From assembly GCF_041381155.1 (NCBI RefSeq), contig NC_091147.1:38256053-38320052 (forward strand): a stretch of 64,000 nt of DNA, given 5' to 3'. Source of the stretch: Argopecten irradians. Its lineage: Eukaryota; Mollusca; Bivalvia; Pectinida; Pectinidae. A program made the translations under genes and the position numbers. Every line of letters starts with the position of its first letter. Position 1 is the first letter of the stretch. The notes beneath the pieces were generated by a model, which was not told the origin of the DNA, searched no databases, and saw only the letters and a list, made by a program, of their open reading frames with translations. This document shows positions 2,097 to 54,551 of this stretch, one piece after another.

Positions 2097-2179
2097 GTAT
2101 GTAACTCTACAAGTGAATGCGGTTCTGATGATGAGGCGGAAGTGAAATACATCGACATACCCGAAGGGGTGCCTATCAG
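2097..2179 (+). CDS. Exon a of cupredoxin-EGF gene
   Basis: Acceptor TTTTACAG before 2097 and donor GTAATA after 2179. It must begin in phase 0, because the other two frames meet stops. It ends in phase 2 (split Arg). It encodes residues 1-27, including the [10 protein letters not shown] strand that matches the phytocyanin 'GD-x-L-x-F' strand. It is the first exon recognised, not the true first exon. Confidence 0.75.
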
Positions 2180-5100
2180 GTAATAGAATGACGAACGAGA
2201 AGTTTAAATTTTAATTTAATGCTTTAGAATTATTTTCATACCGTTGGTTTGAACTGTTTTTAATCGGCGTCGAAACAAACAAGATTCAATTACGACCGTT
2301 CTGGTTTCGTTTAGCAATTATTAACGTTAACGTCCTTTTGATATTAACAGCCAAAGTCATGTAAGGACGTGCCGGAGAAAAACCACCGATCAGCACCTGG
2401 CAACTTCCCTACAAAAAATTCCAAGTTATTTGGTGTGGTTGAAGCTTTGTTTTGGGAGGCCGTCCTTAAATGACCCTGGTTCTTAAAGATGCTCCATCGC
2501 CGACAGAGCATAAATAATATTCATCACTTGAACAATAATTGGTGTTTAATCGTGTATACATGTGTCTAATTAATACAAAAAAAATAATATAGAATAATTT
2601 TTTTTTTTGGTGCATGCGCAATCAGTACTTCATTCCATATAGGATATAGTGCCACGTAATTTTTTCGGGTTGCAATTACTTTTTTAATTTTAACTTGAAG
2701 TAAAATTAGAAGCTCAAACTTTCCAATGGTGGTAATGGTGAGAAATAAGTAACTTTTGTAACTGAAGAAAAATATTTAAATCGTCTACTACTGTTTTTGA
2801 TAGTGAAAAAATACCATTTGTCAGCGGTGGAGCATCTTTGATAAACCAAACCAAAGGTTGCTATTTGTTGTGATGTCATCACTTTGTAAGCTTATTTTAC
2901 GTCGTTGTGCATACACAAAAGTTGCCGTTACACTCACAAAAAGATGACGTAACAATAAATACCTACCCGGAAGGACAAGAATCTCTGAGATATGCAAATG
3001 CATGGTATATAGATGAACAAAAGACCGTCATCCACTCTGCGGGAGTCGTCATTGACATTATTGTCCGATCTAGGCCAGTCTACTTTTCCATTCACTATAA
3101 TTCCATTCAAGTGCCACATTTCTCTATCTATAGTGGTTCTTTGTTATGAAAATATGATGTCAATCGAGACATTCCGTTTTACCCCTATATAGACAAGAGA
3201 AAAATATGACTTTGCCAGTTTCATCTCGATAACAAGCGATGTGATCTGACTCGCAACATTCAACTCTGAATGAGGTTAAAAAGAGACACCGTGTCCCGCA
3301 TCATGTATCGACCTCCAAGAATAGCATTATATGTGCTAGATTTTAATGCATATTTGGTATCAGAAGTCTTACGCAGGAATGTTATATGACCGGCCTCAAT
3401 CTAAAGCATTAATGCATACCAGGTTTGAATTTCGCCTTTTACGCTAATAAAAATTTTCAAATGCATTTAAGCATTCAAGGTGGGTGTTCTCGGGGTTTAC
3501 CAATTTCTAGTGTAATGCGAGAGAGTAGGTTTTCGTGTGAAATATCTATTTCAAACCAGACCAACAGACAATAAACGACATGTGATGGCTGACAACGACA
3601 AATTGAAACTTTTGTACCTTGTAGGGCTTACATGCAGTTTAGCTTTAATTTAAAGATGCTCCACCGCTGACAAATGGCATTTTTTCTCTATCAAAAACAG
3701 GACCAGACGATTTTTCTTCAGATACAAAAGTTACTTACTTCATACGATTATCACCATTAAAAAAGTTTTCAAATTTTACTTCAATATAAAAATATTAAAA
3801 ATAATTAATTGCATCACGAAAAAAATCCGTGGCACTACTACATGTATGTCCTATATGGAATGCAGTAATGATTGCGTATGCACCGAAAGCAAAATAAATT
3901 ATTTTAAATCATTTTTTATGTCAATTAGTCATAAATATACGATGAAACACCAATTATTGTTAAAATGATGGGTATCATTAATGCCCTGTCGGCGGTGGAC
4001 CATCTTTGTTTAGTGATATGGAGACAAAATACAAAGATCAGAGTGCACTTACAATGAAGCTCTCAAGTTCTGAACGTTATATCTTCTTTTGTGTTAATGA
4101 AATTAATTAAAATCAACTATTATAAAAAAAGTTGATTGTAATTCAATCGAAAACTGTAATATTCACATCTTCTTGGTTTTTTGGGTTTTTTTTTTTCAAA
4201 GAAACTGTTACGCTGTTCTAAAAGCAAATTAGACCTAACGCTCCAAATTCGACAACACGTTCACACTATCACATGAAAACATACATTCTTAATCCAATGA
4301 ATGTGGTTGATATGAACGTGGCAAATCAAATTTGTTGTTATCAATTTAAATACCCATTTCTGAGTTAGTAGGTAGTTACAATGGCTGACCATGATGTGTT
4401 TCTTTGACAATGTGTCAGTTATAAGTTAATTGGTAAATACAATGTATAGATAAAGTCTTTGTAACATGGCCCTGCAGGTAGGGCGTTAGAATTGTCCTTA
4501 ATGTCCCATGATCGTTTTGCATGATTGGAAAAGGCGACCAAATTAAGTATTCTTATATTTTCTCTTGTTCCTAACTGAGTTTGCTCTTCTTAGCGTCTTC
4601 CTTGACACCTCCCCACTTTTGGCCTTCTGTTGAGCGCTCACCCCTATGAGGCAAGCTCTGTCCCCTGGCCGAGACACACCGAAGTCTATAAAAGTGGTAG
4701 TTTCTGCTCCTGCTTAGCGCTCAGCATACAGAAAGTTGGACGACTGGTTCGCTCATTTGTCAGTATAATGTGACCGGGTTTAGTGTGTTGCTTGGTGTCT
4801 TCGGCAAAAGGGCAACAGTTCCGCTATACAATAAGACACAACACAAATATACCACAGTCTCCAAAATCACGCAGCTTGCACCTCATACACACTACATACC
4901 GCAAACATGGAAGGCCGTCCTTATATAACCTGAGCTGTTAATTGGACGTTAATTAACCAAACAAATCTTAGAAATAAAAGCAAAATGGAATTCGGAAGAA
5001 AATTATTTAAGAATATACTTGCATATACCTGGTGGAGTGTTTTAGATTACGTTTGTTCCGATTTCTCTCTTTCCGTTGAGAGCCTAGCAGACATTCAGCT

Positions 5101-8100
5101 TCTCTTTCCGTTGAGAGCCAAGCAGACATTCAGCTTCTCTCTTTCCGTTGAGAGCCTAGCAGACAGTCAGCTTCTCTCTTTCCGTTGAGAGCCTAGCAGA
5201 CAGTCAGCTTCTCTCTTTCCGTTGAGAGCCTAGCAGACATTCAGCTTCTCTCTTTCCGTTGAGAGCCTAGCAAACATCTAGCTTCTCTCTTTCCGTTGAG
5301 AGCCTAGCAGACAACAAGTTTCTCTGTTTTCGTTAAGAGATTAGCTTTCCCAAAACATTATATTCATTCGTCGGTAACATGAAAACTCAGTTCTTTTCTA
5401 TGTCGACAGCGCTTGTAGTATAATACATGTATATTATTATTTGATATTTTAACAGTTTTCTCTTGTAAGTTGTATATTAATTGGCAAAATATTCTTAATT
5501 TTCATAATAAAAGGACATACTGATTAATTTAGAAAATTTTGGCATATATCAATCAAGCTTTCTTGAGCTAATTTCACTTTTCTGATACAGTTTTTATGTC
5601 AATGTTTCATTTTTCTTTTTCAGAATATATCGAAACGTGTCAGAAAATGACAACTTGGCACTGTGGGAAGTTCCAAAAGACGTATTCGATTCATGTGAAA
5701 TACCTTCCAGCAAAAATACTAACGGAAGTACACAGTCCACAAATTATACGGCAATGAAATGGTCAGATGATTTCAACCTTGATATTGGAGCGCATTTCTT
5801 TATAGGTAATTTGTTTCTCGACAATGTTTTAAAATGTATTTTAGAATATAGAATGTGTTGAATGTTCAATAGCTGTTGATGTCAACTTCAATCAGAAGAC
5901 AGACAGCATAACTAGATATGGACAAATAATAAAGAATGTGTTGAATATATATGAATGTGCTTCTAGCAACCTAGATATATGTACTTTGTGTCTTAGAATA
6001 ATTGAACTAGCAGCCCGGCGTATTGGTTGTACTGTTCTTAAGTAAGTTCTGAATACTTCTCGCTTGATAAACTCATTACAATTCATAGATTTTATACGAA
6101 TTTTCATTAATAAAATGGTAACATTCGGGAAAAATATTCGTTCTGTACTGGGACGCGGCCACTTACCGCGATGTACCAGTTATCGTGATTTCTGCTCACC
6201 TCGATCTACCGCACAATTTTTTGAAAATTTTTTAAAATGTTCATTTGCAACCGATATTGCAAATAAATCTACGTTTTCCTTTTGAAATCAAAGTTTGCAA
6301 CACTCTAAAATAATGGCCTGAACCGGAGACTAAGATCGAAATCAAGACTTTCAATTATTTTTTCGCAGAAAAGTGGAAAAAAAATTAGGGTCGGAGGGGG
6401 GGAGGAATTAGGGTCGGTCGGGTAACCCTTAACAGGCATGTGTTTTGGCCTTTTCAAAAAGGCTAATCATTGAGGAAAAATATTCATACTGGAAATGCAA
6501 TAAGACATCACCTTCCATACAAGGGCGTGTTTTTATTATCCTCTATTTTATTCATTGTCATTTAAAACCTAATAAATACCGTCGAGTTGGGTATTTTATC
6601 GAATATGATGTTTTCGCAATTTTGCAGGGATATCATCGCGAAAATTCCATCCGCGAATTATTTGGAAATTGTTGAACGATACATATCCTGAAAGTCAGAT
6701 TGCAAAAATGAAGTTCTCATTTTATTATTAAATCGCAAACATTGGTATAAATGATAGACTATATGATATGAAATAGAAATATACATCACATGTATACTCA
6801 CCGAAACACTGACTTTTTCAATGTACACAATGTATAGTGATTTTAAGATAACACAGGGCGTCACATCCTCGAAACTCAAGAATATACCAGCTATCTTATA
6901 GTAATAATGGCCGGAAGGGCGTTAGAATTGCACCTGCTGGGCTATTGCATGATCGTAAAAGGCGACTAAATTTAGGATCTTATCTTTTCTCTTCTTCCTA
7001 ACTGACTTTACCTTTCCTAATGCCTCCCTTGGCACCGCCTCACTTTTGGCCTTGAGTTGAGCGTTCGCTCCTGTGAGAAAGGCTCTGGGTTCTGTCCACT
7101 GGCCTTGACACAAAGTCTATAAAAGTGGTAGTTTCTGCTCCTGCTTAGCTCCCAGCATACAGGGAGTGGGACGACTGGTTCGCCCGTTGTCAGTATAATG
7201 TGACGGGGTAGGATGTATTGCTTGTTGTCTTCGGCGGCATACTTCAGTGATATAGCGCTATAAAAGGGCAACAGTTTTACTATACAATAAGACACAACAT
7301 GAATATACCACATCCTCCCAAAACACGCATCTCGCACAACATACACGCAACGCACTGCATACATGGGAGACCGTCCTTGCATGACCATAGCTGTTAATAG
7401 GACGTTAATTAATCAAACAAACAAACAAACAAATAAAGTAATAATGGAGGCAACAGAACAGAACAAGTCGTTTAGTAATTTGATGTACATCAAAGGAGCC
7501 GCATAACGGTACTATGTAGTTGACTGTGTGGTTTTGAAGTTGGGCTTCGCTCTCTCTGCAGTCTTCAAAGGAAATTTTTACAGGCCTGTGACTGGTTCAA
7601 ATTTGTTCTCCTGAGCTGCCTTCAATTTTACTAGCAGATCGCCCAGGGGTGGATATAAGTTATAGTAACCGAGGATGGGGGTTTTATTGGTTTCAGTAAA
7701 ACAACAAGACCCTCATTTAAACTCTTACTCAACCCCATTCATCTTCCTGGGATCTTTGATCTGCTTCTTTCCCTTTTCTTTCAATGTGCTTCCCATTTTA
7801 ACGACCTGGTCGAGACCAAAGCAACAGTCACACGACGACTGTTCAACTTCCCTAATGCAGTAGAATTATCAATTTAGACTCCGTTACGTTTAAGCCTAGC
7901 AAAACCAAACAAATAAAAAGACTTCCTGCTTGTAGTTTCACAATGTACTTAAAGTTAGATTTATTTCTCTGTTTTCTGTCTCTCTCACCATTTTGTCTGT
8001 GCTTACAAATTTACTGACTGGTTTGAAGTCTGAATAGCCATTCTGTGATCAATATAACCGTTTGAAAGACGCCACCAATAGTTTGTAGATTCGTCTTGTA

Positions 8101-11100
8101 CTACTTAAATTAAATGTGATGGAAAATTCAACTTTATTTTGCCTTTGAAAAAATTTCCATCGATGATCAACTAATGAGTCACTTGTTCTGACATAAAGAC
8201 TTCTATATCCATGAAAATGTCTCCATGCTTAAGAGCTAGTGTTCCAATGATATAAATAAACCCCATTTATATAGTCTTAATATTCCACTGGGCTTATTTT
8301 GCCTGAGTGTTCATAACTGCTTCAATAAAGACATTATTTCATTATATATGTAACGGAATGAAACTTTATTCAATGGACATATAAAAGTTTTCCTTTCACA
8401 GAAGGACTCTCACGTCAATTTACATTGATTATTCTAATTTTGTACACAACATTTCACCACTTTCACATTAATTTCAGATATATTCATCATTTAGTCTTTG
8501 TTACATTTCATCCATTCATATCCTTTCAAAATAGATTGATATATAATGACTTTAATTACTGTATAATTAATTTCCAAATTTTCCACTAAATACGTCAAGG
8601 GAGACAACTCTCATATAAAATGACTAAAAGGAAGACTACTTAGTTCCACATATTAAGTTACACAATGGAATGAAACTCATACAATTTTATTTCACAGCCT
8701 CCATTATTGATTAAAACTCCGAACCTCTGAGCGTTAGACTAGCAAGCACGCGCAATGTTTTCCATAAGCATTGCCTCTTGTAGGGTTCGAACTCGGGACC
8801 GTTTGCTTATTAGTGCAATCTACTGACTCTTTACAACGGTTCCAGGCTCTCTCTCCAGGAACGACCACATCCTAGAGATCCCAGATGTTAATAGCAATGG
8901 AGGCAAAACTGTGCATCATCCTCGAGCTCTTATGTAGCTGCCAATATAATAAAGCACAGGAGTAATTATTCATTAAGATTTACGAGTCGCATGCAGAAAT
9001 GATCCTGTTCTAGCTGACAGATAGGCTTATGTTGCGTTTAGTATTCACAAAGGTTTCCCTTTTCCACTCTGTTGGTATTTTTCTGATTAACCTAACCTTA
9101 CTTTACTAGTAAGCCTGAAAGATGGCGCCCTCGAACTCGAAACACAGAGGTGAAAGTTCACTCGGTCACCATGATCACCTGTCTGTGGTGAACGATAACA
9201 TGTGTTAATAAAACAACTGTTAATGTCAACTTTAATTTTAAAACAGACAGCATAACTACATTTGTGTGAATGATGAAGTGTTATGATACCACAAGACATG
9301 TATAAACAAAAATAATAATGGTGCTCTAAAAAATCACCAAATAGGAAGGCTCTGTGTGCGGAAACAGATGAGATAGAAAGTTTCGTACATCAGAAGAATC
9401 GATTAACTTTGAAGATGGACGTCGACCTCTACATAATCTTTTAAAGGAATTCATGTAGGCCTGTGATTAATCTTTTTTCCCCTGTGATGCCTTCAGTTTT
9501 GCTATGGCAGTCCAGGGGTGGATATTACGACGGTGATAGTAGCCACTAGAATATCGGGGATGCCCGAAACATTTTGAAACTGTTAGTAGAACAAAAAAGA
9601 TACATGGTAACCAACAGGAATATACGAATTTTTAGTCTTTTCACGAACCGCATTTGTTTGTATTATACACTAGGGAATAAACAAATATCTTCATTACCCA
9701 GGGGTACAATATAGTTACTCTAATTGAACGAAAATCAAAAGTGGAGAATCGGAGCTAAATATTGTTTTCATGCACGAAACATGTTTATTGCTAAAATTAC
9801 TACGCCTACCATTCAAATAAAAACTTTAAGGTATATCTGTTTTGACATTTCGTGTTTGTGTCAATTACCATAATACCATAGACATTGCCATTCCCACTGT
9901 TCATCCTTCGTTGGCCGTTAGTTATCACTTTCCTTGTTAACACAAGAATCATTTTGATTTTTAAAACATGTAGCCTTAAAATTGCTATTTGAAATTTGCA
10001 TCTGTGCTTTTATTGCCATCTGCCATTCGTTTTCAATCACCATTTCAATCGGTCGGCCATAATACATAGGCAATTAGCCACTAATAACCCTTGTGATAAT
10101 CTCTCGATAATCTCACGAGGCTATCGGAAGGTAAAGCATTGACTGATATATGCGAGATCTCGAATGTAATTTCAAGTCTATATAGCATTATATATATATA
10201 TATCAAAAGTGTCATGAATTGAACTAGTGTCTAAGTTAAACTGGCATACTATACAACCTTTGGTTTTCGGAGGAGAGGGGGGTATTTTCTCGATTCCGCG
10301 GAAATTCGATCAGTAAAAAGATGGGAAATATGTAATTGTATAAATCTATATTGCTTAATTATATGTTTCTTCTTTTATATATTTTTTCATTAAATTGAAA
10401 AAAAAAATTCTTGCTCTAGGTGGAACTGCGAAGTCTTTAGACAAGGAATAGCTGACGCTACTGCTGTAAAATTAGTCCGATGAACTGGTAAAATATAAAA
10501 TTATGGCATATAACAAAATTTGTCTATCTGATGCCGTTAATACATATCCGACATTAGTAGCTATATAGTTAATGCTGGTGCCTTCACACAATGGAAATGA
10601 AGATGATAGCAGTCTCCGTTTTATAACTCAATACGCAGTCTTTAAGATCTGCCTTTACGGTGGCAACATCTACTCTTTCCAAAAGGTTTTTCGTGTTATT
10701 GACGTCGTAATATGTTTAGCAGTATGCCGGAAATCAATGTAGTCTATTAGTATATTAGGATTTCCATAGAATATTGACTGATATTAAGGCCAACAATATT
10801 ATTATGATTAATTTAATCTTATACTTAGGCCTGACAAATAGACAGGGATATCCAAACCCGAGGGCTTGCAGAATGTTAACGGCCAAAAACCTTTTTTATG
10901 AATGTGGAGATATACATGTAATTTCCAAATTTTTCACCAATGCTTAATAGAAAAACATGAGATTTCTGTTGCTTTCCAGCATCATACCATCATCAGATGA
11001 ACGTCGTTTTGCGTCGAAATCGACAATGCACGCCGCGATTAAGCCATCTGTATTGATGGCGTCATGTAATTGCTCACAATATAATTTCTAGTGCGTGTGA

Positions 11101-14100
11101 ACTGTCTAACACACCATGTGCTTTTCTCTAGCAACCACGGAATATCCTTGTGATGTATGGGAGAAATAAACGTCCTCAGTGTAGTTAACATTTTCCATTC
11201 TCTAGAAAGCTCTGGATTTTGTGGGGGAACATCCAGATTCTAACATAAAACCCAGAGGTTGATGATTATGCAGGCTAGTGATAATGTGTCGGAATATGTA
11301 TTTTTTGTGCAAAAATATGTTTATTTCCAAGACATATCTTTAAAGAAATAACTGTCAGGGGTGGAACCCAGAATTCAGTAATCGTACAAAATTATGTTTA
11401 TCATTCACTCATTCTTTCTGTCCTCCATATATCTTATTTGTCGCTGTACTATCTTCTTGTGCTATCGAGATAAGTTATAACGTTAAAATTTTACACAAAA
11501 CTTTTTGCGTCGGAAGCGAATTGTGGCTTTAATGAGGTAACATTATAAAGAAGTTCACATTATCACAACGAGATAAATCAAATATACTGCAGTCTCACAA
11601 AACACGGACCCACAACACTCTTTAATATCACAAATAGGGGAGACACAACTTTCCTTGAATTAATTTCCTGAATTAATAGTAAAACCTTAAATAAAATGAA
11701 AACCTTCATCTTTAAGTTATGTCACATAAGTACAAAATGGCCTTTTTTATGAAAGGATAAATACTAAAAGAACACTAGAACATGAGCATTTTCTTGTTTC
11801 TGCTTTATGGTAGGGGAAATACTTCTTCAGTTCCCTTTGATGGAACACTTGCACGTGAAAATTCTCTTGTTTCTGCTCTTGCGGCATTTCTTTCATATGT
11901 TTTATAATCTTTATCGATTGAAGATATATATAAGCTACGAATTATGTGCTTCAACTGTATTTGAGGACATATGGAACCATGCACATGCCACTAAGTATGT
12001 GTTTGAGATATTGATTCTATGAAGCTAACGAACTTTGACTAGATCTTCAGACTAATTGCAGACACCCAGTCACGGTGATATCATTACACGAACAATCGGA
12101 TGTCTATAACTCTCCATATGTTTTTACAGTCAAGACGAGATGACTTTAAGTCTACCATATCTTGGTCCGGAGCATCTGATATCGATATCTTTAATGAAAG
12201 AAATATCATCAACCCTACGTCAATACAGAAATACAGACGCCAGACGGATGTTAAGCTGCTTGTTTAGAGGAGCAACACTTTACTTTACTACATTCTTTCA
12301 ACTACATTGTCGTCTTATCGTGACATTTTTTAAAATCCTGATATGTTTTCCTCTAGCAAAAGATTTTTTTTTCTTTTCAAACTAAATCTGGCTTTCTGAT
12401 TGGCCAACCTATGAAAGTAAAATCCGAGAATAGCACATAAAAACGGCGTTATCGTGACGTTATAATGGAGACAATTATCCTTTGGAAAACCAATGGATTA
12501 TACGTTTAAACGTATTTTATTTTATCATAGGGTTTTGAATAATATTTATATGTACTGAAGTCACTATTGTAGCGGTTTCACAAAGTTTGCAAACAAAATT
12601 TCTATCATACCTTGATGAAATTTAAAGATAGTGGCATCCATGCTAAAATACATTATTATTCATATACTTCAATCTTCCTTCCTCTTGCCTGACCATGCCA
12701 TCCTACATACTTTTAACAAAATATGCTAAATGTAAAAAAACTGTATAATATTCTACCACTCTGACTATTTTCTTCCTTCGTTCCTCTCGCCTAACCATGT
12801 CATCCTATTTCATAAAGGCAATCTTTACGTATCCTCTTTCACTCTGTTCTGTCAATCTTACCCTCTTCTACAGACCATTTTCCCTAAGGCTTTTCTTACT
12901 TTTTTATCCTATCTTACTGTCGTCCAAATCACCCTTCATCTTCCACTCTCTTCTGGCTATGCTCACTCTTTTTTTAGGAGTTTCCATCATCTTCCATTTT
13001 CTACGAACTGGTTCCTTTTCGTCTGAGAATTTCTATCCACTTGTTCTTTTTCCCACCTTTAAGTCTCGTCTGTCATTTCCACTCTCTTCTGACCTTTTTC
13101 CTTCTGATCTTCCGATATATACATCCTTCATCTTCCAGTCTCTTCTAACCATTTCCATCCTCATCTTTTCTTGCCATTTTCATTATCTTCCACTTTTAAT
13201 GGATCATTTCATTCTCTTCTACAACACTCTCTTCCGAGCATTTCTATCCTCTTCCACTTTGCCTGACCATTTTTTACCACCAAGTTTTGTCATTTTCACT
13301 CTCTTCTGGCCCTTCCCATTATCTTCTTGTGATCTTTAAACATATCTTAGTCTTTTTCTATTGTTAGTAGTGTATCTTTGATGTCCGTTGACCAAACAGA
13401 TATGTCAGAAAATGACGTGTGATTACAATAATTAGATCATTTGAGAAAGTCTGCCTCCTAAAGTACAACCTAGTTAATTCCTATCAGTGTCTTTATTGGA
13501 AAACCATTGAAAACACCAAAACACATTAATTGTTTTTTTCAATAACAACATTATCAAGTAATTGTGGTGTGTTTTCTCCTTTCGAAAGAGGTTTACTTGT
13601 CATCTCATATGAAATGTTCAATCTTGCATTAAAACAACCAGTGAAGACGTTAAATCTGATCAAAATACATATATGTAGATTGAATGTCATTTGATTGAAA
13701 AATTTAGGAAGTCAAGGGTACAGATAAAAAAGATTTTGCGGTCCTCTACTCTAATAAATTTCCTTAATCAACAACAGTACTTTTGTACTATTATCACCGC
13801 AGTCGGGAAGAGATATCTGACTACGAGTTCCAAAATGATGTACTTAGTATCAGTTATGAATATTAATATTTCGTACTTCATAACCATCCTCTAGGTGTCT
13901 TAGTTTTCAGCACGATTTGAATTATTATCATCATAATGTAATTATGTAACACTCCAGACTGGTATCCCCACTCTCTGTTCTATTACTATGTAAATCCACG
14001 TTAGGTTTGTACAGTACTGTTTTCTCATTTATGAACTGCTATGTTTATACTGAAGGAAATGTATAACACTAATTCAATTGCCACCAAAATTCAATTATCA

Positions 14101-17100
14101 GCGGAGCATTAATATATAAGGGAAACATGTACTGCAAATGGTAAGCATGACTCATGAGACTCCGGCAGAGAGATCATGAAGTGCAGTATGAAAAGTATAT
14201 CCATTTTCATCGAATATATTAGCGTTAGGTTAATAGACACCAAAGAAAGTGGAGAGTAATCTTGAGAAAAATACTGACATATGAACCACAACTTCTCAGA
14301 ACCGATACACCGTTGTATAAATTCTATTTGGAATCGTAGTTGGTTGGAAATATAATACGACGGATAACGAAATCAGATGTGTAGGTGTACTTCTACCATT
14401 ATCCCTCAATTAAACCATGTAACCACTTTCTTTAAGCCAAGAGCCAAAGCGAAGACTCTGACAACGGAAAAGCAAACACAGCCAAACACAGCTACACGAG
14501 ATAAAACATTTAGTGCAAGAATATTTTGGAAATAAAACTTTATGGCAATTGCAAACCATTAGGGCTTTTGCAGAATTGTTTTCCATTTCAAAAGCGGAAA
14601 TTTACACAAGGGAGGATATACGCGAAGGCGCATGGTTGCGAAAATTGCCCTCCGCGCGTAATATTTTGTGATGTGTTTAAAAACTTTACGAAGGAAGTCG
14701 GACTAGTTACACCTTCAGATTTATTTTATTCGGCAATCAAGCACGCATCCTCGATACTCCAGGGGTTACTACTATCTCATAGCAAAACTGGAGACAGCAG
14801 AACATAACCAGTGTTCAATCTACAATTATTTTTCGTTGGCCCTTTTCAATGGTTTTTGTGAAAACAATGGGTCCCACAGTGTTATAGATACCCATTCCCA
14901 GATATTTCATGGGTCCTTTTAAAATTCTGTGAGTCCAGATCTCGGGATGCGCACGTAGATTTATCACTGCATAACAGGTTGTTTAGTGATTTGGTATACA
15001 TCAGAAGAATCATAAAACGGCACACTGTAGTTGACTTTGTGGCTTTGAAGTAGGGCGTCGGTCTCTTTGTAGTCTTCAAAGGAAATCTTTGCACGCCTTC
15101 GATTGGTCAGAATTTTTCTCCTGGACTGATTTTAGGTTTACTATGATATAGTCTAGGGGTGGATATAACGTCAGTAATAGTAACCCCTGGAGTATCGCGG
15201 ATGTCAATCACGTAACATCAAAATAAATTATTATTTACAAAATGTTCTAACATAATCATAATAAATATTAAAATTAAAATAATAACTGATATATGTATAT
15301 TTAATGAGACACCAACTTGTACTTATAAAGCAAACTGTTTTGTAATCTGAACTATATTCCGGCCTATATTAGATTCCAATGTTTATCGACAACAAGCTTC
15401 TAAATGCATCACCTAATGCAATTGTTTTTAATCCACGTTGACTAAAATCCATTACTGAAATGCGATTGCTTATAATCAACGTCAACGTTTAATGCAGCTT
15501 CCCAGACGGGACCATTTTCATACACTGTAATCAAATTGTAAAGCGTGCTGTTGAATTGTTTAGCAGATGTATACATACGTAGATGTATCGTATTCGTCGC
15601 GATGTTCTTAATCTCTTTAAGACACGAGAGCTTTTCTTAACATTAGAGATGACATCCGCTCCCTGTTACTACCAGTAAACACACCAGAACAGGCCACGTA
15701 ATGATGGTATCAGTGTGTTAAATGTTGATAAAATATATGGGAGAGAACGATCAAAGTCTCAACTCGATGTGCATCCGTTAGAAACCGTCTTTGTAATTCA
15801 ATGCTGATTAGCACGAAAAGACGCCATAAAATAAATAACAACTCTGCAACTCTGAGAAAATCCCATTCACATTTTCCCCTACACTATCAATATAACGTAA
15901 CTTATAAGGTAAATTTTATGTTAAATTCCGTGTTAATGACGATTTCAAATGCTCTTGATTCATGGAAATAAGCTCATGAAAAATTTCCAAAGAGCAAATA
16001 TTGCACCCGAAAAATTTAGCAATTGCACAGTAAACAAATCAATTGTGTTGATGTGGAAATGTACCACAGAGGGACTAACAACCCTAGTTTTTCTAAATAA
16101 TATCAATTTGAATATCAATTTCTAAATATGTTTATTGATAAAAAATAGGATTAGACATCAGGCATAGTCTATCTTAGTCTTCTCCTAGGTGGTACAAACA
16201 AAACAGATATGAAACATATATACATGATATGGTTTACGAAAATAGGGGAAGGTGACTCCCTAATAAAGTTGGGTATAATAATCAATTATATCTATTCCGT
16301 CTTTGCATATTACAGAGTTAGCTCCCTGGCGGGTAGGTATCGATTGTTACGTCATTATTATTTTGTGAGCGCAATTTACGTCGTTTTCGCCGAAACGTAT
16401 GGCGTTACGCTCCCAAACACATGACGTCACAATCAATACCTACCCGCAAGGACAGATAATTCTGTAATATGCGAATACAGAATTGTAACTCTATAAATCA
16501 GCATTTTATTATGTCACCTGAGACGAAATCTCAAGTGACCTATTCTAATCGCCTTTTGTCCGTCGTCGTGCGTCCGTGCGTCGTGCGTCGTATGTCCGTA
16601 AACAATTTACATTTTCGACTTCTTCTCCAAAACTGCAGAAGCAATTTCAATTAAATTTTGCACAAACCTTCTAAGGCATAAGGCCAATCAAAATTGTGAA
16701 TTATATGGTCCCCACCCTCCCAGGGGGCTGTGGGAGGGGCCAAAAGGGGTAAAATTGAGTAAAATTTCAAAAATCTTCTTCTCTACTCACAGATATTGTA
16801 GAATCAAATACTCTTCATAGATAGAAAGGTCTTAAGGTCCTTTACAAAAATTGTGAACTATATGACCCTGGGGTCTCTAGTTTCCCCCTGGGGAGGGGGT
16901 TAAGTTTACTATAGTTTATATTGGGAAAACACATTTTTGCGCATTATTTGGTCATTTGTAATAGGAAATGAGTCAAATGTTGTCAGAATTATCAGTATGA
17001 GATGGCCATGTAATCCTATTAATTAATTATCTATGACTGACCCCTAAGGGCCTTAGGGACGGGGTCAAAAGGGGTCAAATACATTGTAGGCTAAAACTTC

Positions 17101-18543
17101 AAAAATCTTCTTCTGAAATTCTGGAAATGGTAGAATAAAATACTTTTCATAAATAGAAAGGTCTTAAGGTCCTTTACAAAAATTGTGAATTATATGACCC
17201 TGGGGTCTCACGTTTCCCCCTGGGGAGGGGGTCAAGTTTACTATAGTTTATATAGGGAAAACACATTTCTGAGCATTTTTTGCTCAATTTTCATTGGAAA
17301 CGAGTCAAACTTGGTTAGAATTATTAGCCAGAGATAGCATTTTAACATCATATCCATATTGGTCCAGGCCGACCCCCTGGGGGCAGAGGGGCGGGGCCAA
17401 AAAGGGACAAATAGGCTAAAACTTCAAAAATCTTCTAAAATTCTGGATATAGTAGAATCAAATAATTATAGATGGAAAGGTCTTAAAGTGTTTTATAAAA
17501 ATTGTGAATTATATGACCTTGGGGTCTCACGTTACCCCCTGGGGTTTGGTTTGTTTATTTTTACGTCCTATTAACAGCCAGGGTCATGTAAGGACGTGCC
17601 AGGTTTGTTGGTGGAGGAAAGCCGGAGTACCCGGAGAAAAACCACCGGCCAGCGGTCAGTACCTGGCAACTGCCCCACATGGGATTCGAACCCGCTTCCC
17701 AGAGATGGAGGGATTGTGTGGTAATATGTCGGGACATCTTAACCACTTGGCCACCCTGGGGAGGGGTCAAGTTTACTTTAGTTTATATAGGAAAAACATA
17801 TTTGTGAACATTATTTGCCCAAATTTCGTAGGAAATTAGTCAAACTTGATTAGAATTATTAGCCTAAGATATAGCATTTTAACATCCATATCCGTCCTTA
17901 AAATTTCAAAAGATACCTCTAAGTTCACAGGTTTGATGGACGCAAATACTCTTCATAGTCTAAAAAGTCAAATTTATAAATCACTGACCAACTTCAAGGC
18001 CCAGCATATAGTGTTTATATGTCTTTAATTTGTTTCATTATTTGTTTCATTATATATTCTAACTCAGGTGACCGTTAAGGCCCATGGGCCTCTTGTTTTT
18101 ATTTAATATGTCAACCGAATTATAGTGCCATGATTCTAAATACTGTATACTTGATAGTATGTCTATTTCGTGATTTTGTTACTGTTCGCCACAACAGACT
18201 GTGGCAATCTCAGTGATAGTAGGATTTATGTTGCATTGCTACCCATTATTTAGAAACATCTGCCATACTGAAATACAGCCCAAAACAGTAGTTGTATTAC
18301 TAGAAAGTGCCGGAATGCTAAACTGTGAAAACTGATAGAGGTTTGCGCAAAAGGATATTTCTGTGCCTGTAAATGTCGTTTTTTTATTTAAACATATTTT
18401 ATTGTGTAATATTTTTATACAATGGGATTGGGCACAAATTTTCCAACTTATATGAAGCCCTCTCCCTACAGAATTATAATTAATTATATAACAAAGAATA
18501 CAAAAATCGTAAAAATATACATATTTACATATTTACAAGATTT

Positions 18544-18607
<64 letters not shown>

Positions 18608-18650
18608 ATTTTAATAATTGTATATAATTACTTAAAATAAACTATCCCTC

Positions 18651-18681
<31 letters not shown>

Positions 18682-21600
18682 AAAATATTGTAAATATGTA
18701 TAAAAATGTCATTGAGGCTGTTCATAACGCTTAAGGATAATTACATTTCAAAGTGTTTCTCATTGTGTTGGTTTTATTTGTGCAAGCGTTGAAGGTATAA
18801 TGTTACAAGATGATGAAAAGATGCAGTACATACTCAACGTCTTCTCTGAAACCTCATAAGTCCTGTAATTGAACTCTGAAAATTAAAAATTTATCTCCAT
18901 AAAGAACACTTGTGGGAATTGCCTGAGGCTTCATGTCTTTTAATTACATTTTAATTTTTTTCTTTCTTTCGATATATTTTTTTTATTTTTATTTTTCTTT
19001 AAGAAATCAAACAAATGATTGTTGATGAGGGAGTATTCTGTTTTCTTGGTTATTTAAAGAATATGGATTAATTAAAGCAAATATGCCGTATATTCTTCAG
19101 TTATTTTCTAATTAAAAAAGTACTACTTTTGTCACACTAGTAATTGTGCATGTTTCAGTTGTAATTTAATCAATTGAAAGTGCTTTTGTAATCTAAAATA
19201 AAAAAAAATGTATCGTTTTTATTAATTTCTGAATGTAGTTTATATTGCAATAATAAGAGTGTGGTTAAATTAGGCCTATTTGTTCGCGAATTGTTCACGC
19301 TAGAAATTGAACGAACCAAATAAGTGCTGAGAGTAACGTAACCTTGAGTTACAAAAACATAAGGCCTTCTTTAAAACACTGACCACACTATAAATTTAGA
19401 TAAATTTGTTGATTTCTTATCAAGGTAGGTATAGGAGGCATCGTTTTGACGACGGGTTAATCTTAATACATTTCAATCCTCGTCACGACTCTTTTCCAAT
19501 AAGGGTTTAGTTTTGTTTTCCCACTCATAAGATTACCCACAATTCCCTGCACTGTAAAGATTCCTAGAACCGTTAATTACCACAAGGTTTTTTTCTCCTG
19601 GCAGCAGACCTTGTTTCAATTTCCTATTACGGATTCTTGTCGCGAAAATTTCTCATCAACTCCAATTCCATTTTGTAGTTGACAAATACCTTCTTTTTTC
19701 AGTTCATTCGACAGATAATTGCTTTAGAGGGATGCGTATAGCTGTGACGATAAAAACAAATCTTTGCTGGTCGTTACCCGGGAATCATTCCAGACTTTGT
19801 GGTGGAAATGGCAACTGCGTCATCGATTCGTCAGAGGTAATGTAATTGACATATGTTTCCGGTTTTAACGTCCTGAATGTTTCGGAAACGGATTCATCGT
19901 CGACGTGACCGCTGAATCGCATTTCTGCAATAGACAACCTAACGTTATTTCACTTTCTAAAAAGTTGTTTTGTTTATTCAAGTAGGATAATTGAGACAAA
20001 TATGAGACGACCTACCTTGTGAAATAATTAAAGGTTATCGTTCGATTTAACATAGAACTTACCATTACGTGATTAAGATTTGATTATCTAATTATCTTAA
20101 CCCATTGGCGGTAACAAATTTAGACGGATCGATCAGCTGCAACGAACTAATGGGAATAAATGTTGGCATGTAGACGTAAGCGAAAAGAAAGAAGCGTAAA
20201 TGGCGCAGCCAGATTACGAAATCAATCAATGAACTAAAAAATACTTCCACCTTTAAAATATCTCCATCTGCCAAATATTCGAAGTCGATATAGAATGCGG
20301 TATTTGCGTATTCATGTTACGGTGACCTTATATGCAGTGGCCACAATCACCAACAAAATACAGAATAAAACAATGTCTCTAAGTCACAAAAGTTCGAGTT
20401 AAAGAAGTCGACTCTCTTTATGCTGTTTATTACTTTAGATTTGAAAACAGAAGCAAATCGTTATGTATTTTTTTTCAGCCACTCAGAGAAGGCGTAACAA
20501 ACGGTGACGTCATTATGAGATGATAACATGATTGGTTATGCTATTGAAAAGGCTTGAACCAAGAAAGATTAAATTAATACTTTAGTATTTATATTTTTAT
20601 TTTGTTAGCACATGGTACATTGGTTGAATTTCTTGATGTATTCTATATCTGATCAATGTCCTGTTTTACATTTATCAGGAGACCTTTACATGTGTGTGCT
20701 GTCCTGGATACACCTCCACCTACTGTGATAAAACATACCAAGGTAATGTCATCTCTTTAGCAATCCAAAAACACGCAGACGTCCACGCACTTTTGCAGTT
20801 TACACACACTGTTGGCCATCCTTAAATAACCCTGACTATTAATAGGACGTTTATTTACTAAAACATACCGCTACACGTTGCACACTTGGGAGTCCATCCT
20901 TAAATAACACTGGCCGTCAATAGCGGCCATACTAAACCAAACTTTAAAGATGCTCTACCACCGACAGAGCATAAATGATATCAATCATTTGAACAATAAT
21001 TGGTGTTTAATCGTGTATATATATGTCTAATTAACACAAAAAATAATATGAAATAATTTATTTTGACTTTGGTGCATGAGCAATCAGTACTTTTTAGTAG
21101 TGAAAAAATACCATTTGTCAGCGGTGGAGCATCTTTAACAATAATTCTGGCACACTATTTTTACTATACCCGGTAATTTACTCTTGTTGCCAAGAGGAGG
21201 TGTCTTTGATGTAATAGAAACCATGAATGCGTTATGAAAACACAAGTGATTTAGCGTTTGACTCAAGACATCATTTTATCATTTGTTAAAGGAAGCCCGC
21301 ATGTCGATTTTTGCCATGGACTATTAAGTTAGTATAATAAAAAAAATTGACAAAGATGTGTTTCAACAATCGTTATTTAATCCAAAGTAGTTAAAAGTCT
21401 CAGGCGATTTAAATTATAACAAAGTGTGTTACGGGGAAATCAGGATGCCAACAATAAAAGAATATTAAACCACAACACACCAAAAACATGTTTGTTACCC
21501 AGCACAACACACCAAAAACATGTTTGTTACCCACAAACACCAAAAACATGTTTGTTACCCCACAACACACCAAAAACATGTTTGTTACCCACAACACACC

Positions 21601-24600
21601 AAAAACATGTTTGTTACCCACAACACACCAAAAACATGTTTGTTACCCAGCAATACTTTATCAACACAGGAAACAGGCGAATGTACTTACATGCATGGTA
21701 TTTAGTTTGTTTGTTTGATTAATTATTGTCCTATTAACAGCCAGGGCCATGTAACGACGGCCTTTTATTTATGCAGTGCGTAGTGTGTATGAAGTGCGGG
21801 ATACGTGTTTTGGGAGACTGTGGTATATTCACGTTATGTCTTCTTGTATAATGGCATTTAGAATCGAGACAAAACAAAACATGTTATTGCCTTGAAAGGT
21901 TATCTGTGTAAATCTGTGGATTTTTAAAACTATTTTTGCAAATTAAATTGTGGATTTTATCTTTTCTTTTCATCGTAACTAACTTAAGGTGTCTTTCACA
22001 CCGCCTCACTTTTGGCTTTCTGTTGAGCGCTCGCCCCTGAGAGGTTAGTTCTAGGTTCAATTGATTTAGACGACTAGTTTACCCATTGTCAGTATAATGT
22101 GACCGGATTTGGTGTGTTCGGCAGCATGCTTAGCACTATAAAAAGGCAAAGGGTTCCACTATACAAGAAGACACAACACGGATATATCACAGTCTCCCCC
22201 AAAACACGCACCGTACACTATATACACACTTCACACCACATGCATGGGAGTCCTTCTTTTCATTGCCCTAACTGTTAATAGGGTCGTTAATTAATCAAAC
22301 AAACAAATCTAAATCTTCTTAAAAAGTTTTCATTTATATTTGAGCTTATCGTCTCCCTTTCACAAGTTTAACTATCAAAATGCTCGTCATTTGTTTCTCT
22401 CCGTGTTCAAACATAATCGTTATTTCATATGGTATTTCTTATGAAAAAACACACATGTTATAATTCATCTCTAGCTGTTACGGTTAATCTTACAGCATCG
22501 CGTGATGAATGCTCGTGAATGCGTTCTACATACCAAAGTCTTGGCCTGATTTTTGATAAGCCTGAAGTGCGGTCCTGAAGTAGACCAATCGATAGCCCGG
22601 AAGTGGTGTTCTGGTTGGTATTTTATCGGCGGTGTAGATTGTTGTAATCATTCATCTCTTGAATGATGATCTGAACAGCGAAAATAAGTTAATAATGACA
22701 CGCAATCCACAGAGGCCAAGTCATGAAGTACGCGTCGGATTATATAGTAAGTGTTTAGTTATGTTCAGGGCGCATTCGATTGACCCCAGACAATCACACT
22801 GATCATGATTCATTTATTTTCGTAGAAGAAATAGTCGGTCACATGAAAAATGGCGAATTCGTTTTACTCTGATTTCTTTACAGTATCATTAAAGAAACCT
22901 TTCTAGATACATAAATTCGCATTTGTTAACGTTTATAGTTGTCTTTTGACGCCTGTTATCATTTGATCCTATCTGTTTGTATTTAGTTACCATCTGTCTG
23001 TCCTTGACCCTCGCTGTTGGAGTGTCCTTGACATTTCTTCTCAAAACTCTTCGCATCGTTTGGGTAATCGTCCTCGTATAGTATATAGTAATTACATTAC
23101 GCGAGGAGAATGTTTTGAGATCTTTTCTTTATTATGAAATATAGGAACGTAAATCCATCGCGAATAAAATTCTTTATACAGTAACTCGGGTGATAGATGT
23201 CTGTGATCCCATGCCTACGATGATTTTGACTATCGGTAATTGCTATGCATTTGGACTCTGAAGGTTATGGCTGTTGTTGATCTTTTGGTTCTGCTATGGA
23301 TGTATTCCTGAAACAGGTTCTTTGATAATACTTCCTTTATCTGTCCTCAAATAGAGCTAGCTGTTAAGTTATTAGAAGGAAACAATCCCTGAAATTCCCG
23401 CTCTTTTTCACGTGAGGAATTTTCAAGTCTTCTTTAGAATGTAAGAAAATATATTAAGGTCAAAAATTAAATAAACGTTTTTGTAATATTTTTATTCATC
23501 GCGACAGTATTTAAACAACTATTTAGTATCTTTTATTTATTTAGGTATCATTTTGTTTTTGTTGGGTTTTTTCCCTAAAAGACATATATAAATGTACTTA
23601 AATGAACAACAAAGCAAACAAAACCATTTAACTCTTATTGCTTCAGCGATCATTAAAATCAAAAGTTACTTTTGAACGTCAGAGTTACGCCATCTTCTAT
23701 TTTGTTTGTATTACAGAGGTGATTAACTCGACGATTGATGAACAACCAACGAGCATATGTCAGACATCACCGTGTTCGAATAACGGCACGTGCGTGGAAG
23801 TAGATAAATCCATCTACATTTGTATATGCGCGGAAGGATATACTGGTGCAAAGTGTCAGAATATAGACCTCTGTACACCGAATCCTTGTGCATCTGGTAT
23901 CTGCCAGACAAACAACGGCACAAGACAATGCTATTGTACCCCAGGTATGTATAGAACACAAGACAAATACAATAAATAATTTGTGATTTATTGGGTAAAA
24001 TGTCCCTTTTCTCAGAAAACGCAACTTATATTCTTATTTATTTTACACCTGCGCTTAACATATCAAGACGTAGCTTGGCATATATCAATTATATTTTAAT
24101 TGAGAAACAAGGTAACGATGTGGTTTGAATCATACAGTTATGGTATAACACACATCTTTAAAGAAGCACAGTATTAAGTTTTTACAATTACATTTAATCC
24201 TAACACGCTTCGAAATTATCAGAAAAAATTAGATAAAAAGATAGATTTTCCTTAAACAAAACGAACATAATCAAGAACGTTTGGCACAAAACAATTTACA
24301 ATACTGTATACTATACTATATTTAGAATGACAAATATGCTAGAAATATAACAGAAGCAACTTGCGTTTATAGCAACTGTTAATTTAACATTTTTCACAAA
24401 CCATCAATGCGTATGTCTTTTCATTTTAAAGGTTATCATGGTGAATTGTGTGAGAAAGATTACAATGAATGTCAGTGTAAACCCTGTCAACATGGCGGAC
24501 ACTGCGTCGATAAACAGGACAAATATGAATGTGTATGTCCAAGAGGTTACACGGGCACAAACTGTTCTCAGAAGGTGAGTTAACATAAGGATAATCTGAT

Positions 24601-27600
24601 AGTATCGAAGGCTTGAGATATGTTGAACTTACCCACCTGACAACTAACGGATAATATGATATAACCCAAAGATTAGGAGGAGTTTCTAGAGCTTATATTG
24701 GATCTTATTTCAAATGGAAATTACTTAAAATTGAACAAAGGAGGCCTTATTTATAAAAGAAATATTTCAAGTTGTAGCTGAACTCCCTCAGTTTACGCCT
24801 AAAAATTGCCGTCAGAGATGAAGCCACAGAGCCCTGGTGTCTGTTCGTGAAACCCAGGAATAATCCAACAGGGGGAATTCCAACGGTTACTAGTATTTAT
24901 AACCATTTCACGTAACAAAGTTTAATGGAATCCTCTTGCCTGCCTGTCTGTCCATAGAAAACAATTGTCAATTCAACTCCTCTTTAACTACTGGGCCCAG
25001 ATTCAGTAACATTCCTTAACTTCAAGGAACTCCTTAACTTATGAAGAATTTTTAGTTGAAAGTTCCTTAAAATTAAGGAATATTCATGAAACTGGGACAA
25101 GGATTAATTTCAATGAAACATGGCAATGTAGAGGACCATGTATATTTGTTTGGTTTTTGTTGTTGTAGTTAGGGTTGTAATGGAAACCAGGTCACTATAA
25201 ACAGGTTTTGAAAACTGACCAATAACGTCTGATCTCCTCGATCAATTTTGTTCAAACTTGCTCAATTGGTGCAACATATGAATGTCTATAATTTTACACA
25301 TCACATGCTTCAATAACGGTTACGAAGGAAACATAATGGAGCGTTTGTAGTGTTTGAAACATTTGATTGATATTGTCTTAAATAAGGGGTAACAGGGTAT
25401 TACTTAACTGTTAGCTTACAGATTCAATTATCCACAGTTGCTGAATAGGTGGTTTTATTAAATTTCTCCCAACAATTGACTTATCAACCCAAAGCTTCTC
25501 AAAGTTTAGACTATGGGAAAGGATAAGTCGAAACATTTACCTAGCGAAGACAAAATCGCTTGAGAGAACCTCTGTCAGAATTGTTTAGTCTAGATTCGTT
25601 CGCTCTTTTTCAATTCTGCAAATTGGACATTGCAATTTGAAAATACCATAATGTTCGCAGACAATTTAGGAAAATTAGAATAAGTGGTTGGAAAAATGGC
25701 ACAATATCACACAAGGCTATTGAAAGTAAACCGTAGTAAATAGAGATTCATCGGGTCATCCATTCTCAAGGGACGGTAAAGCCAATTAGAACCACTTAGT
25801 TAGAGAATTTTGTCTAGACCTGTACCAGAATAGCTCTCTCCCCACTTTGGATTGCAAAGGGTGTGCTATAACGATACGGGGAAGGTCATACAATCAAATA
25901 TATAAAGCTTAAGGATATTTTCATCAGGTTTTCAGTCCCTTGCCGGTGACTATAGTGTTTGTGTCCATCTGCCTATCTTTCTGGCTCTCTGTGTCTATCT
26001 GTCCATCCGGATTTTGGTTTTCAGACGGTAACTTGAGAACTAAGGGAAGGATTTTTAAGAAACTTCATACAATGGTACTTTAAGAGGTAACGCAGGTTGG
26101 GCTTGTATTTTGGGTCAAAAGGTCAATAAGAAAAGTACTATTACTAAAACAAAGTTAAAATCTCACTTAACTAGCTCGCGGGGTAAATGTATTACTTCAT
26201 CAATGCTCAGAGTGTTTGTTCTTAAACTTTTTCTCTCATTGTGGATTTTCATCATTGCTCAATAAGATATTGTATTTCAAATCTAGGTAAACCTCTGTGC
26301 CCACAACCCATGTAGAAACAATTCAGCCTGTATAGACCTCGGGACCAGTATCAGATGTCTGTGTCGTCCAGGGTATACAGGTAAGAAAAAATACTGTGTG
26401 AGGCCCCCTCGATACTCCATGGGTTACTATCACTGCCGTCATTTTCACCCCCTAAATTCAGTCATAACAAAAATCAAAGCAGTTCAGGGGGGGGGGGGGG
26501 GATTACCAATCAATGACCTGCATAGATTCCACGTGAAGATTTTTCATCATGAGGGACGACGCCTAACAACACTCAGTCAACAACAGTGTACCATTATTGA
26601 ATTATTTTGATTACATCAAATGATTAATCTATCTGCTCGTCTGTTGTGACACACATGACCTTCAGTTTTTGATTGTATTCCCTATAGTATCGAGGTTGTT
26701 TGTTTAGCGACGTACCTGTGAAATACCGATGATATTTTCTTCTGTTAAAGATAAGTTCCTGCGTATTTGCGCTCAAATTTGCATTCTCCGTTTACTGTTA
26801 CACAAACATGATATGAGTATATAAATACTATGAAGCAATATGTTCAGATAAAAAAAAATCGGATATTAGTAATTACATATCAATTATGGACCATTGTTCA
26901 GATCCACATTATGGTGTTATATCGCCAGTGCAGAATAAGTATTTATTATTTTAAATTCAACAAGGGATATATAACAACATAAAGACCGAAACAAAGGTCC
27001 TTAATTTATATATATTACATATGATTTTTCTTTAACAAATGTCAAAAATAATCTGTTTATACAAGAAAAGTATTGTTTAAAGAACGCCACCCTGAAGAAT
27101 GCAGCGTTTGGGCAACGACGTTCGCAAAGGAATATTGACCCAGTGTTATAAAAATGGTATCACCGAGTCAGTATGCTATAAATTGAACTTAGTATAGTGA
27201 AAAATCATAGCATATCTTTTCATGTATCAATATTTCCAGGTCACAACTGTGATATTAACATCAATGACTGTTCGTCAAATCCATGTCTTCACATGGGCAC
27301 GTGCCATGATCGTGTAAATGGGTACTGGTGCGCGTGCACGGAACCACACGCCGGCTTCAGCTGTGAATTCACGTGTAAGTTACCAAGATTCAACCTAACA
27401 AAGGTAGTAAATGCATGGTTAGTATTTTACAATACAAGAATTATTTTGGTGCGAGACATGCGAAAGCCGAGATGACGAAGCTCTGACGAGTCATCTTGGT
27501 TTTCATTTCGATCACCAGAACATTGCATTGTAAGATACTGACCGTGTATTCTGTTTATCCTGCAACCATTTCATTTTAGGCGATGTTCAAAACGAAGGCA

Positions 27601-32099: not shown

Positions 32100-32950
32100 T
32101 TGTCCTCTTGAAGTGTTTTCTAATTGGTTAAACCATGTTTGTATAAATTGGTCGTGTTTTTTTAGTAATAGTTAAATGTAGATATTTAATATTAGGTAAA
32201 CAATTTCTCTGATGTATCCAAACAAAACTTAATCCAACACTGTCTAAAATATTTTTAACATATTTCATCCATTTAAACTCAATCTGACCAGTTACATGGA
32301 GAGTATACATCAATTTGTACATAAAACTTGACAGTTTGCTTTCATTGGATAGAAGAGTATACCAAAATTTTATCATTCTTAGTTTGATATTGACAGTAAT
32401 AGGATACCTGCCAGTTTCTCCGTAAATCATGAAATTAGAGGTATTTTTTCGTAGACCAAGAATTCTTTTACAGAACTGCAGATGTATTTTTTCCAACAAC
32501 CTTGTATTTTCGTACCCCCATATTTCACATGAAAATAATAATATTGGGGTAACTAATGAATCGAATAACTTAAGTTGTATATCAACAGGTAAATTAATAG
32601 TTCTTATCTTACGGTAAAGAGCAAAAAGTGTTTTATTGGCTTGAATACACAATTGTTTTTGGCAGCCATAAAGCTTCCATTATAGTTAAATAGTACACCT
32701 AAGTATGTTGAATATCTCGTTGCTTATTGAACACCAAAAATCGCTTTCTTCCTGTCGGCTTTCGTTTTGCAAAAATTACGACTTATGTTTTCTTTGTGTT
32801 AACCTCAATTTTCCATTTTTGACAATATTCTTCAAACATATTTAATATATGTTGTATATTACAGTTAATCCGCCTATCACTAAGTACTGATTTCTTCATA
32901 TGGTCACTATCGAAGTCGACAGTGGCAGTACAGGTACGTGTAGAATAGCT
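32100..32950 (-). mobile_element. LINE (non-LTR retrotransposon) reverse transcriptase C-terminal remnant
   Basis: On the - strand the frame 32652-32128 encodes ALYRKIRTINLPVDIQLKLF, SLVTPILLFSCEIWGYE, LEKIHLQFCKRILGL and YGETGRYPITVNIKLRMIKF. This is the post-palm and thumb region of jockey/CR1-like LINE reverse transcriptases in aquatic invertebrates. Upstream on the same strand (32950-32660), broken pieces read CQKWKIEVNTKKT and YLGVLFNYNGSF, the end of the palm. The frame is interrupted by stops and a frame change in that part. 5'-truncated dead copy; no endonuclease or catalytic YxDD seen. Confidence 0.85.

Positions 32951-39076: not shown

Positions 39077-54551
<15,475 letters not shown>

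Follow-up and report, generated by a model that had tools for sequence, protein, structure and literature searches.

Which kind of domain stands at the N-terminus of a protein with EGF modules encoded in this DNA of Argopecten irradians, and what would it do there? The window, by which the whole analysed stretch of 64,000 nucleotides is meant, is C14:38256053-38320052 of the 846 Mb genome. The gene in question was described in a first-pass annotation as an animal EGF receptor carrying a phytocyanin-like cupredoxin domain that has lost its copper ligands. On balance, the present analysis favours a copper-less cupredoxin-like binding head, which would be mounted on an EGF stalk in a single-pass cell-surface protein.

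Likeness to phytocyanins

A phytocyanin profile was built from five PDB sequences (2cbp, 1f56, 1ws7, 1x9r, 1jer), four of which were represented by their aligned part alone. The 140-residue domain was aligned with this profile by hhalign over 52 columns with a score of 36.8 (probability 86%, P about 5e-6). The best composition shuffles reached 24.4 (n=400), 21.9 (n=1,500) and 24.9 (n=400), and the native score lies above all 2,300 of them. The result was stable when each of the five plant sequences was left out in turn (P 2.5e-6 to 2.2e-5).

Gene structure

Splice-site reading of the window gave ten exons on the plus strand between 2097 and 30063, with GT-AG sites and consistent phases, and they encode 467 residues and a stop. 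The joined frame contains no internal stop.

2097-2179, plus strand: coding exon A, N-terminal domain (VCNSTSEC...GVPIR), phase 0 in and phase 2 out, acceptor ttacag, donor CAG/gtaata
5624-5805, plus strand: coding exon B, putative cupredoxin-like core with the first disulfide cysteine (Cys52 in the 467-residue numbering), ends in ...GAHFFI, phase 1, matches the phytocyanin profile alone
19703-19836, plus strand: coding exon C, last strand of the domain (Cys95, Met99) and start of EGF1
20679-20742, plus strand: coding exon D, end of EGF1
23717-23944, plus strand: coding exon E, EGF2 and most of EGF3
24432-24574, plus strand: coding exon F, end of EGF3, and EGF4
26287-26380, plus strand: coding exon G, most of EGF5
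27240-27374, plus strand: coding exon H, end of EGF5, and EGF6
28731-28914, plus strand: coding exon I, juxtamembrane stretch, membrane segment and start of the tail
28799-28855, plus strand: hydrophobic segment, presumed transmembrane helix, from hydropathy with coordinates counted by hand
29907-30063, plus strand: coding exon J, cytoplasmic tail, stop TAG at 30061-30063

The exons are real. The three domain exons, whose splice sites are canonical and whose two junctions are in phase 2 and phase 1, were already given in the first-pass annotation; together with the seven further exons they yield its 467 residues, and Cys52, Val89, Asn94, Cys95 and Met99 all stand at the positions that it gave. 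The link between the N-terminal domain and EGF1 needs no splicing assumption because the end of the domain and the first EGF1 cysteines are encoded together in exon C. The gene model could be wrong in that exons A and B belong outside the EGF gene or are pseudo-exons, and the first exon, a candidate 9 kb upstream of exon A, leaves room for this. However, all phases fit with canonical splice sites and no stops, exon C unites the domain end with EGF1, and exons B and C match adjoining profile columns. An error of this kind is very improbable.

Since exon A opens at a phase-0 acceptor, the first exon lies upstream, outside the window. The 30 kb upstream and 2.1 kb of the window were scanned for an ATG, a hydrophobic stretch and a phase-0 donor with thresholds set by us, and three rows at two places were obtained. 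One of them, a convincing signal-peptide candidate, is found at C14:38248827-38249006 (window -7225 to -7046), 7.2 kb upstream of the window. It reads MMTTQEAWSLSVLGTLVLCFVLCGTVEG... and its donor is CAT/gtaagt; no second copy was seen in the genome search. We infer that it is the first exon of the gene, with additional small exons being possible, and the product including it would have 527 residues. An open frame at 723-868 (MTGWSVLC..., signal-peptide-like, weak donor) was dropped as a first exon because its first part lies in 677-788, a dispersed-repeat copy that is 77% identical to 7154-7265. The remainder of this frame resembles the same repeat by eye. Copies of dispersed repeats occupy 677-788, 4551-4965 and 6945-7421 in the upstream region and the introns. 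In the A/B intron, a 37-base unit is repeated seven and a half times at 5063-5339, and the array ends about 280 bases 5' of exon B.

Separate exon matches, copper site and fold

Exon B alone scored 25.7 against the phytocyanin profile on columns 43-78, while the best of 300 shuffles scored 20.5 and none of the 300 reached the exon B score. Among 140 native open frames exon B itself was at the top, and the next one (21.5) had been fetched through the PF02298 search. The exon C part alone scored 15.6 on columns 83-94. The two exons thus match separately in adjacent register though they are 14 kb apart. The first-pass annotation had seen the phytocyanin order and spacing along the whole domain. 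This was upheld for the C-terminal half with its cysteine pair, but not for the N-terminal strands (GDxLxF, HNV). On the alignments, the phytocyanin likeness is beyond chance but limited to the C-terminal strands.

In the alignments, Cys52 and Cys95 fit the disulfide pair of phytocyanins and are in register with the profile, as had been claimed. The cysteine ligand of copper is replaced by Val89, the second histidine by Asn94 and the first histidine by Leu or Asp depending on the gap placement, and the axial ligand is kept as Met99. The loss of three ligands with retention of the methionine, likewise an earlier claim, was borne out by hhalign. Provided that the alignment holds, blue-copper chemistry is excluded. 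Rice phytocyanins without copper ligands are named early-nodulin-like. Key copper residues are missing from 24 of 62 rice phytocyanins (PMC3184959). Judged from its sequence, the N-terminal domain quite probably has a cupredoxin fold.

Pfam searches, points against the reading and a possible likeness by chance

The PF02298 (Cu_bind_like) search of the genome gave two other matches, both on the first part of the model. One of them (L002, 21.8 bits) is above the cut-off and contains an in-frame stop, and the other (L003, 19.1 bits) is below it; both were judged to be chance matches by reading frame. The domain with EGF1 had eight genome matches. Four are the exons of the gene itself, two lie in other EGF genes (E 0.185 and 0.289) and two are unrecognisable (E 1.73 and 9.77). 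PF00127 and PF13473, the families of monodomain copper cupredoxins, were unlisted for the domain in the Pfam searches and had no genome match at E up to 1.

Several results weigh against a cupredoxin-like binding head. PF02298 was listed for four of the seven domain-holding constructs at 13.1 bits (136 residues), 13.4 bits (108), 14.0 bits (88) and 12.4 bits (140). These values, with E 0.05-0.16, are under the Pfam gathering score of 20.8 bits. In favour of the reading, it was the family listed for the domain-only constructs of 88, 108 and 140 residues. It was unlisted for the constructs of 203, 467 and 168 residues (the last with the signal peptide); that of 203 residues carried a repeat-derived stretch and listed Hirudin at E 0.061. 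A Pfam match over the cut-off, which would have supported the first-pass annotation, was not obtained. No PDB sequence matched the domain at E up to 10, and no paralogue of the gene was seen in the genome. In the N-terminal half (residues 1-74 of 140), 83 of 300 shuffles scored as high against the phytocyanin profile, so that the GDxLxF-like stretch has no clear profile support; residues 48-86 gave a weak match, equalled by 5 of 300 shuffles. The exon C part exceeded the best of its 300 shuffles (15.2) by a narrow margin. An AlphaFold2 model of exon B by itself gave no information on the fold, with a pLDDT of 53, a single helix of four residues and no strands. Finally, the function proposed for the domain is drawn by analogy.

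The N-terminal domain could instead be a Cys-rich extracellular domain unrelated to cupredoxins, with a likeness to phytocyanins in its C-terminal 60 residues that arose by chance or convergence. The significance becomes borderline after correction: P multiplied by about 25,000 families leaves about 0.1, and homology is therefore not called proven. Two of four shuffled decoys matched unrelated Pfam families at E 0.011-0.048, similar to the values where PF02298 was listed. Because shuffled decoys reach such values, a Pfam E-value proves nothing alone, and it was rejected as proof of phytocyanin identity. The unmatched N-terminal half, with four extra cysteines of which two are in the candidate first exon, would also suit an unrelated domain. 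On the other hand, the spacing from GxxFFI to CxxGMxIAV is exact and includes both disulfide cysteines, the two exons match separately in register, and the whole-domain shuffles remain far below the native score. A chance likeness is accordingly held to be improbable.

Comparison with ephrins

A search of the genome with PF00812, the model of the ephrin ectodomain, gave three matches within 1.6 kb on C8, two above the cut-off (39.2 and 34.6 bits) and one below (16.7 bits). When joined, they matched ephrin-B2 at E 3e-18. The same model was unlisted at E up to 10 in any construct of the window domain. Against the phytocyanin profile, the C8 ephrin gave no match (14.3, P 0.09), and the window domain is closer in sequence to phytocyanins than this ephrin is.

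These results were set against the possibility that the N-terminal domain is a highly diverged member of the ephrin family, which arose by duplication of an ephrin gene and was fused to EGF modules. An intron of the C8 ephrin gene, after ...GHKYYMI and with its splice sites read by eye, coincides in position and phase with the B/C intron, which interrupts the codon following ...GAHFFI in phase 1. Roughly counted, 3 x 3 introns make 9 pairs in about 315 slots, and such a coincidence has a chance of about 3%. A stretch of the window domain resembles YYSIFLVSKQEYETC, and a four-sequence ephrin profile aligned that stretch, around the first disulfide cysteine, with a score of 19.8-20.0 and P 0.013; 2 of 400 and 4 of 400 shuffles reached this under two settings. 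In contrast, a two-sequence ephrin profile was equalled by 3 or 38 of 400 shuffles, depending on the setting, and the hhalign probabilities of the domain to the ephrin profiles were 0.8-7.4%. The PF00812 model that finds the C8 ephrin does not list the domain, and the other domain introns do not coincide with those of the C8 ephrin. Ephrin-A1 is described with the disulfides C51-C92 and C80-C140 (PMC6485061). Cys52 and Cys95 fit the second ephrin pair; by eye no cysteine stands at the ICP or WxC positions, and one ephrin disulfide is therefore absent. The C-x-x-G-M spacing is phytocyanin-like as well. A diverged ephrin domain is unlikely, without being far-fetched. Taken together, the comparison hints that this domain and the ephrins descend from one animal cupredoxin that carried introns.

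EGF stalk, membrane segment and tail

The Pfam search of the predicted protein gave six EGF stretches (E 1.8e-27). No stretch of the 527-residue product exceeds the mean hydropathy of 2.45 that is reached by the 19 residues encoded at 28799-28855, and besides the candidate signal peptide this is the one strongly hydrophobic segment. The six EGF modules of the first-pass annotation and a membrane segment are thereby supported. All ten N-glycosylation sequons of this product are located before the membrane segment. By a count by eye, EGF1 (exons C and D) and EGF4 (exon F) have a seventh cysteine each; these two might pair together or with the head. The tail consists of 66 residues beyond the CYC that follows the membrane segment, and neither a kinase nor another catalytic family was found in the Pfam listing of the predicted protein. 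Because the tail is short and no kinase is listed, the label of EGF receptor is a misnomer.

Proposed function

The protein would consist of a signal peptide, a copper-less cupredoxin-like (phytocyanin-like) domain, six EGF modules, a transmembrane helix and a short non-catalytic tail, and it presumably resides at the cell surface. The N-terminal domain would adopt the beta-sandwich of cupredoxins, stabilised by the disulfide between Cys52 and Cys95. Lacking a copper site, such a head could not carry electrons, and a protein-binding head is therefore the most likely role. Given the cupredoxin fold, this assignment has a good probability by analogy with copper-less cupredoxin domains that bind proteins or perhaps assemble subunits, as described for ephrin and mollusc haemocyanin (PMC6485061, PMC9395347). 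The head may bind a protein partner, the EGF stalk may present it away from the membrane, and the short tail may anchor the protein or recruit adaptors. The whole would be a tethered ligand or an adhesion protein, working like an ephrin or a Notch ligand, though it is assigned to neither group.

Relation to known systems

Notch ligands of the Delta/Jagged type have a beta-sandwich head, an EGF stalk, a membrane helix and a short tail. The window protein would be alike in all four, its beta-sandwich and membrane helix being presumed. It differs in that no DSL module is listed, and Pfam gives only Jagged/Delta-type EGF models below the cut-off. With the phytocyanins (PF02298), especially those without copper ligands, the domain has in common the C-terminal order and spacing, the disulfide pair, the axial methionine and the ligand loss. 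However, it belongs to an animal protein, is followed by six EGF modules and a membrane segment, is below the Pfam cut-off and has an unrecognisable N-terminal half. The ephrin ectodomain likewise belongs to the cupredoxin superfamily, is without copper and stands at the surface of animal cells, with one intron at the same place and phase and a weak local likeness near the first disulfide cysteine. In contrast, the window domain has no PF00812 match, lacks one disulfide, has an EGF stalk and differs in the spacing before the last strand. Since defining features of both families were tested and were not found, the domain was filed neither as an ephrin nor as a phytocyanin.

Among the matches listed from the open-licence literature, no animal protein combined a phytocyanin-like domain with EGF modules and a membrane helix. 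This agrees with the first-pass annotation, in which the architecture could not be matched to a named family. The available part of PMC12549020 contained nothing relevant. The first-pass annotation further named the ephrins alone as widely known relatives of this fold in animals. That is too narrow a view, as cupredoxin domains are also described in multicopper oxidases, in the haemocyanin of molluscs and in the tuphoxin of ascidians (PMC6485061, PMC4890752, PMC9395347). In the tuphoxins, a tyrosinase family, EGF modules or copper-less cupredoxin-like regions are reported (PMC9395347). The likeness is that of an animal family with both features, in different members; the difference is a tyrosinase with TSP1, for which the available text describes no such membrane-anchored EGF stalk.

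A choanoflagellate cupredoxin of the Cu_bind_like family, S. rosetta F2URU3, is placed in PF02298 (PMC6993872). Copper-binding monodomain cupredoxins are also described in non-bilaterian animals and are said to have been lost early in bilaterians (PMC6485061). As far as the available texts go, these are holozoan cupredoxins like the window domain would be, at least one of them in PF02298. They are copper-binding and monodomain, whereas the window domain is copper-less and found in a lophotrochozoan. From their published descriptions, holozoan Cu_bind_like cupredoxins are a possible source of the window domain.

Other features of the window and the genome

A multi-exon gene, its exons read by eye, extends from 55483 to about 63270 on the plus strand. 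Its first exon is rich in PG (MSGPRLPWRG...), and another exon is of the C2H2 type, FSCDICERGFKTEEKYKEHTDGH. The gene resembles NUFIP1; the first exon alone had no Pfam match at E up to 0.1. An open frame of 174 amino acids at 32128-32652 on the minus strand, which resembles the end of a retroelement reverse transcriptase protein, had no Pfam match at the same limit. Satellite-like arrays at 43585-44999 and 46250-47697 consist of a 25-base unit and of a 90-base unit in 16 copies with 97% match, respectively. Elsewhere in the genome, nine homeobox matches stand in a row at 46.77-47.66 Mb of C4. Among the 8 homeobox loci read out of 11, one gene carries a Lox5-like KLTGP behind its homeodomain and two carry the Lox2/Lox4-like IKELNE. 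Both are lophotrochozoan motifs, and by this Hox cluster the animal is very probably a lophotrochozoan. The mollusc haemocyanin model PF14830 matched nothing, and no control gave a match either.

Implications

Ephrins are thought to derive from a cupredoxin that lost its copper (PMC6485061). A second copper-less cupredoxin-like head, in a lophotrochozoan and in a quite different protein, would bear directly on how the ephrin-type copper loss happened. Protostomes would also gain a candidate family of ligands or adhesion proteins, for which the gene described here gives exact coordinates. A bolder proposal, which is doubtful at present, is that the gene encodes a second ephrin-like type of cell-contact ligand. 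It would be a bilaterian survivor of the holozoan Cu_bind_like cupredoxins, with an independent copper loss, one ancestral intron in common with ephrin genes, an EGF stalk and a receptor of its own. If this is true, copper proteins turned into ligands on two occasions, and the published view that functional monodomain cupredoxins other than ephrins were lost early in bilaterians without a trace would be corrected.

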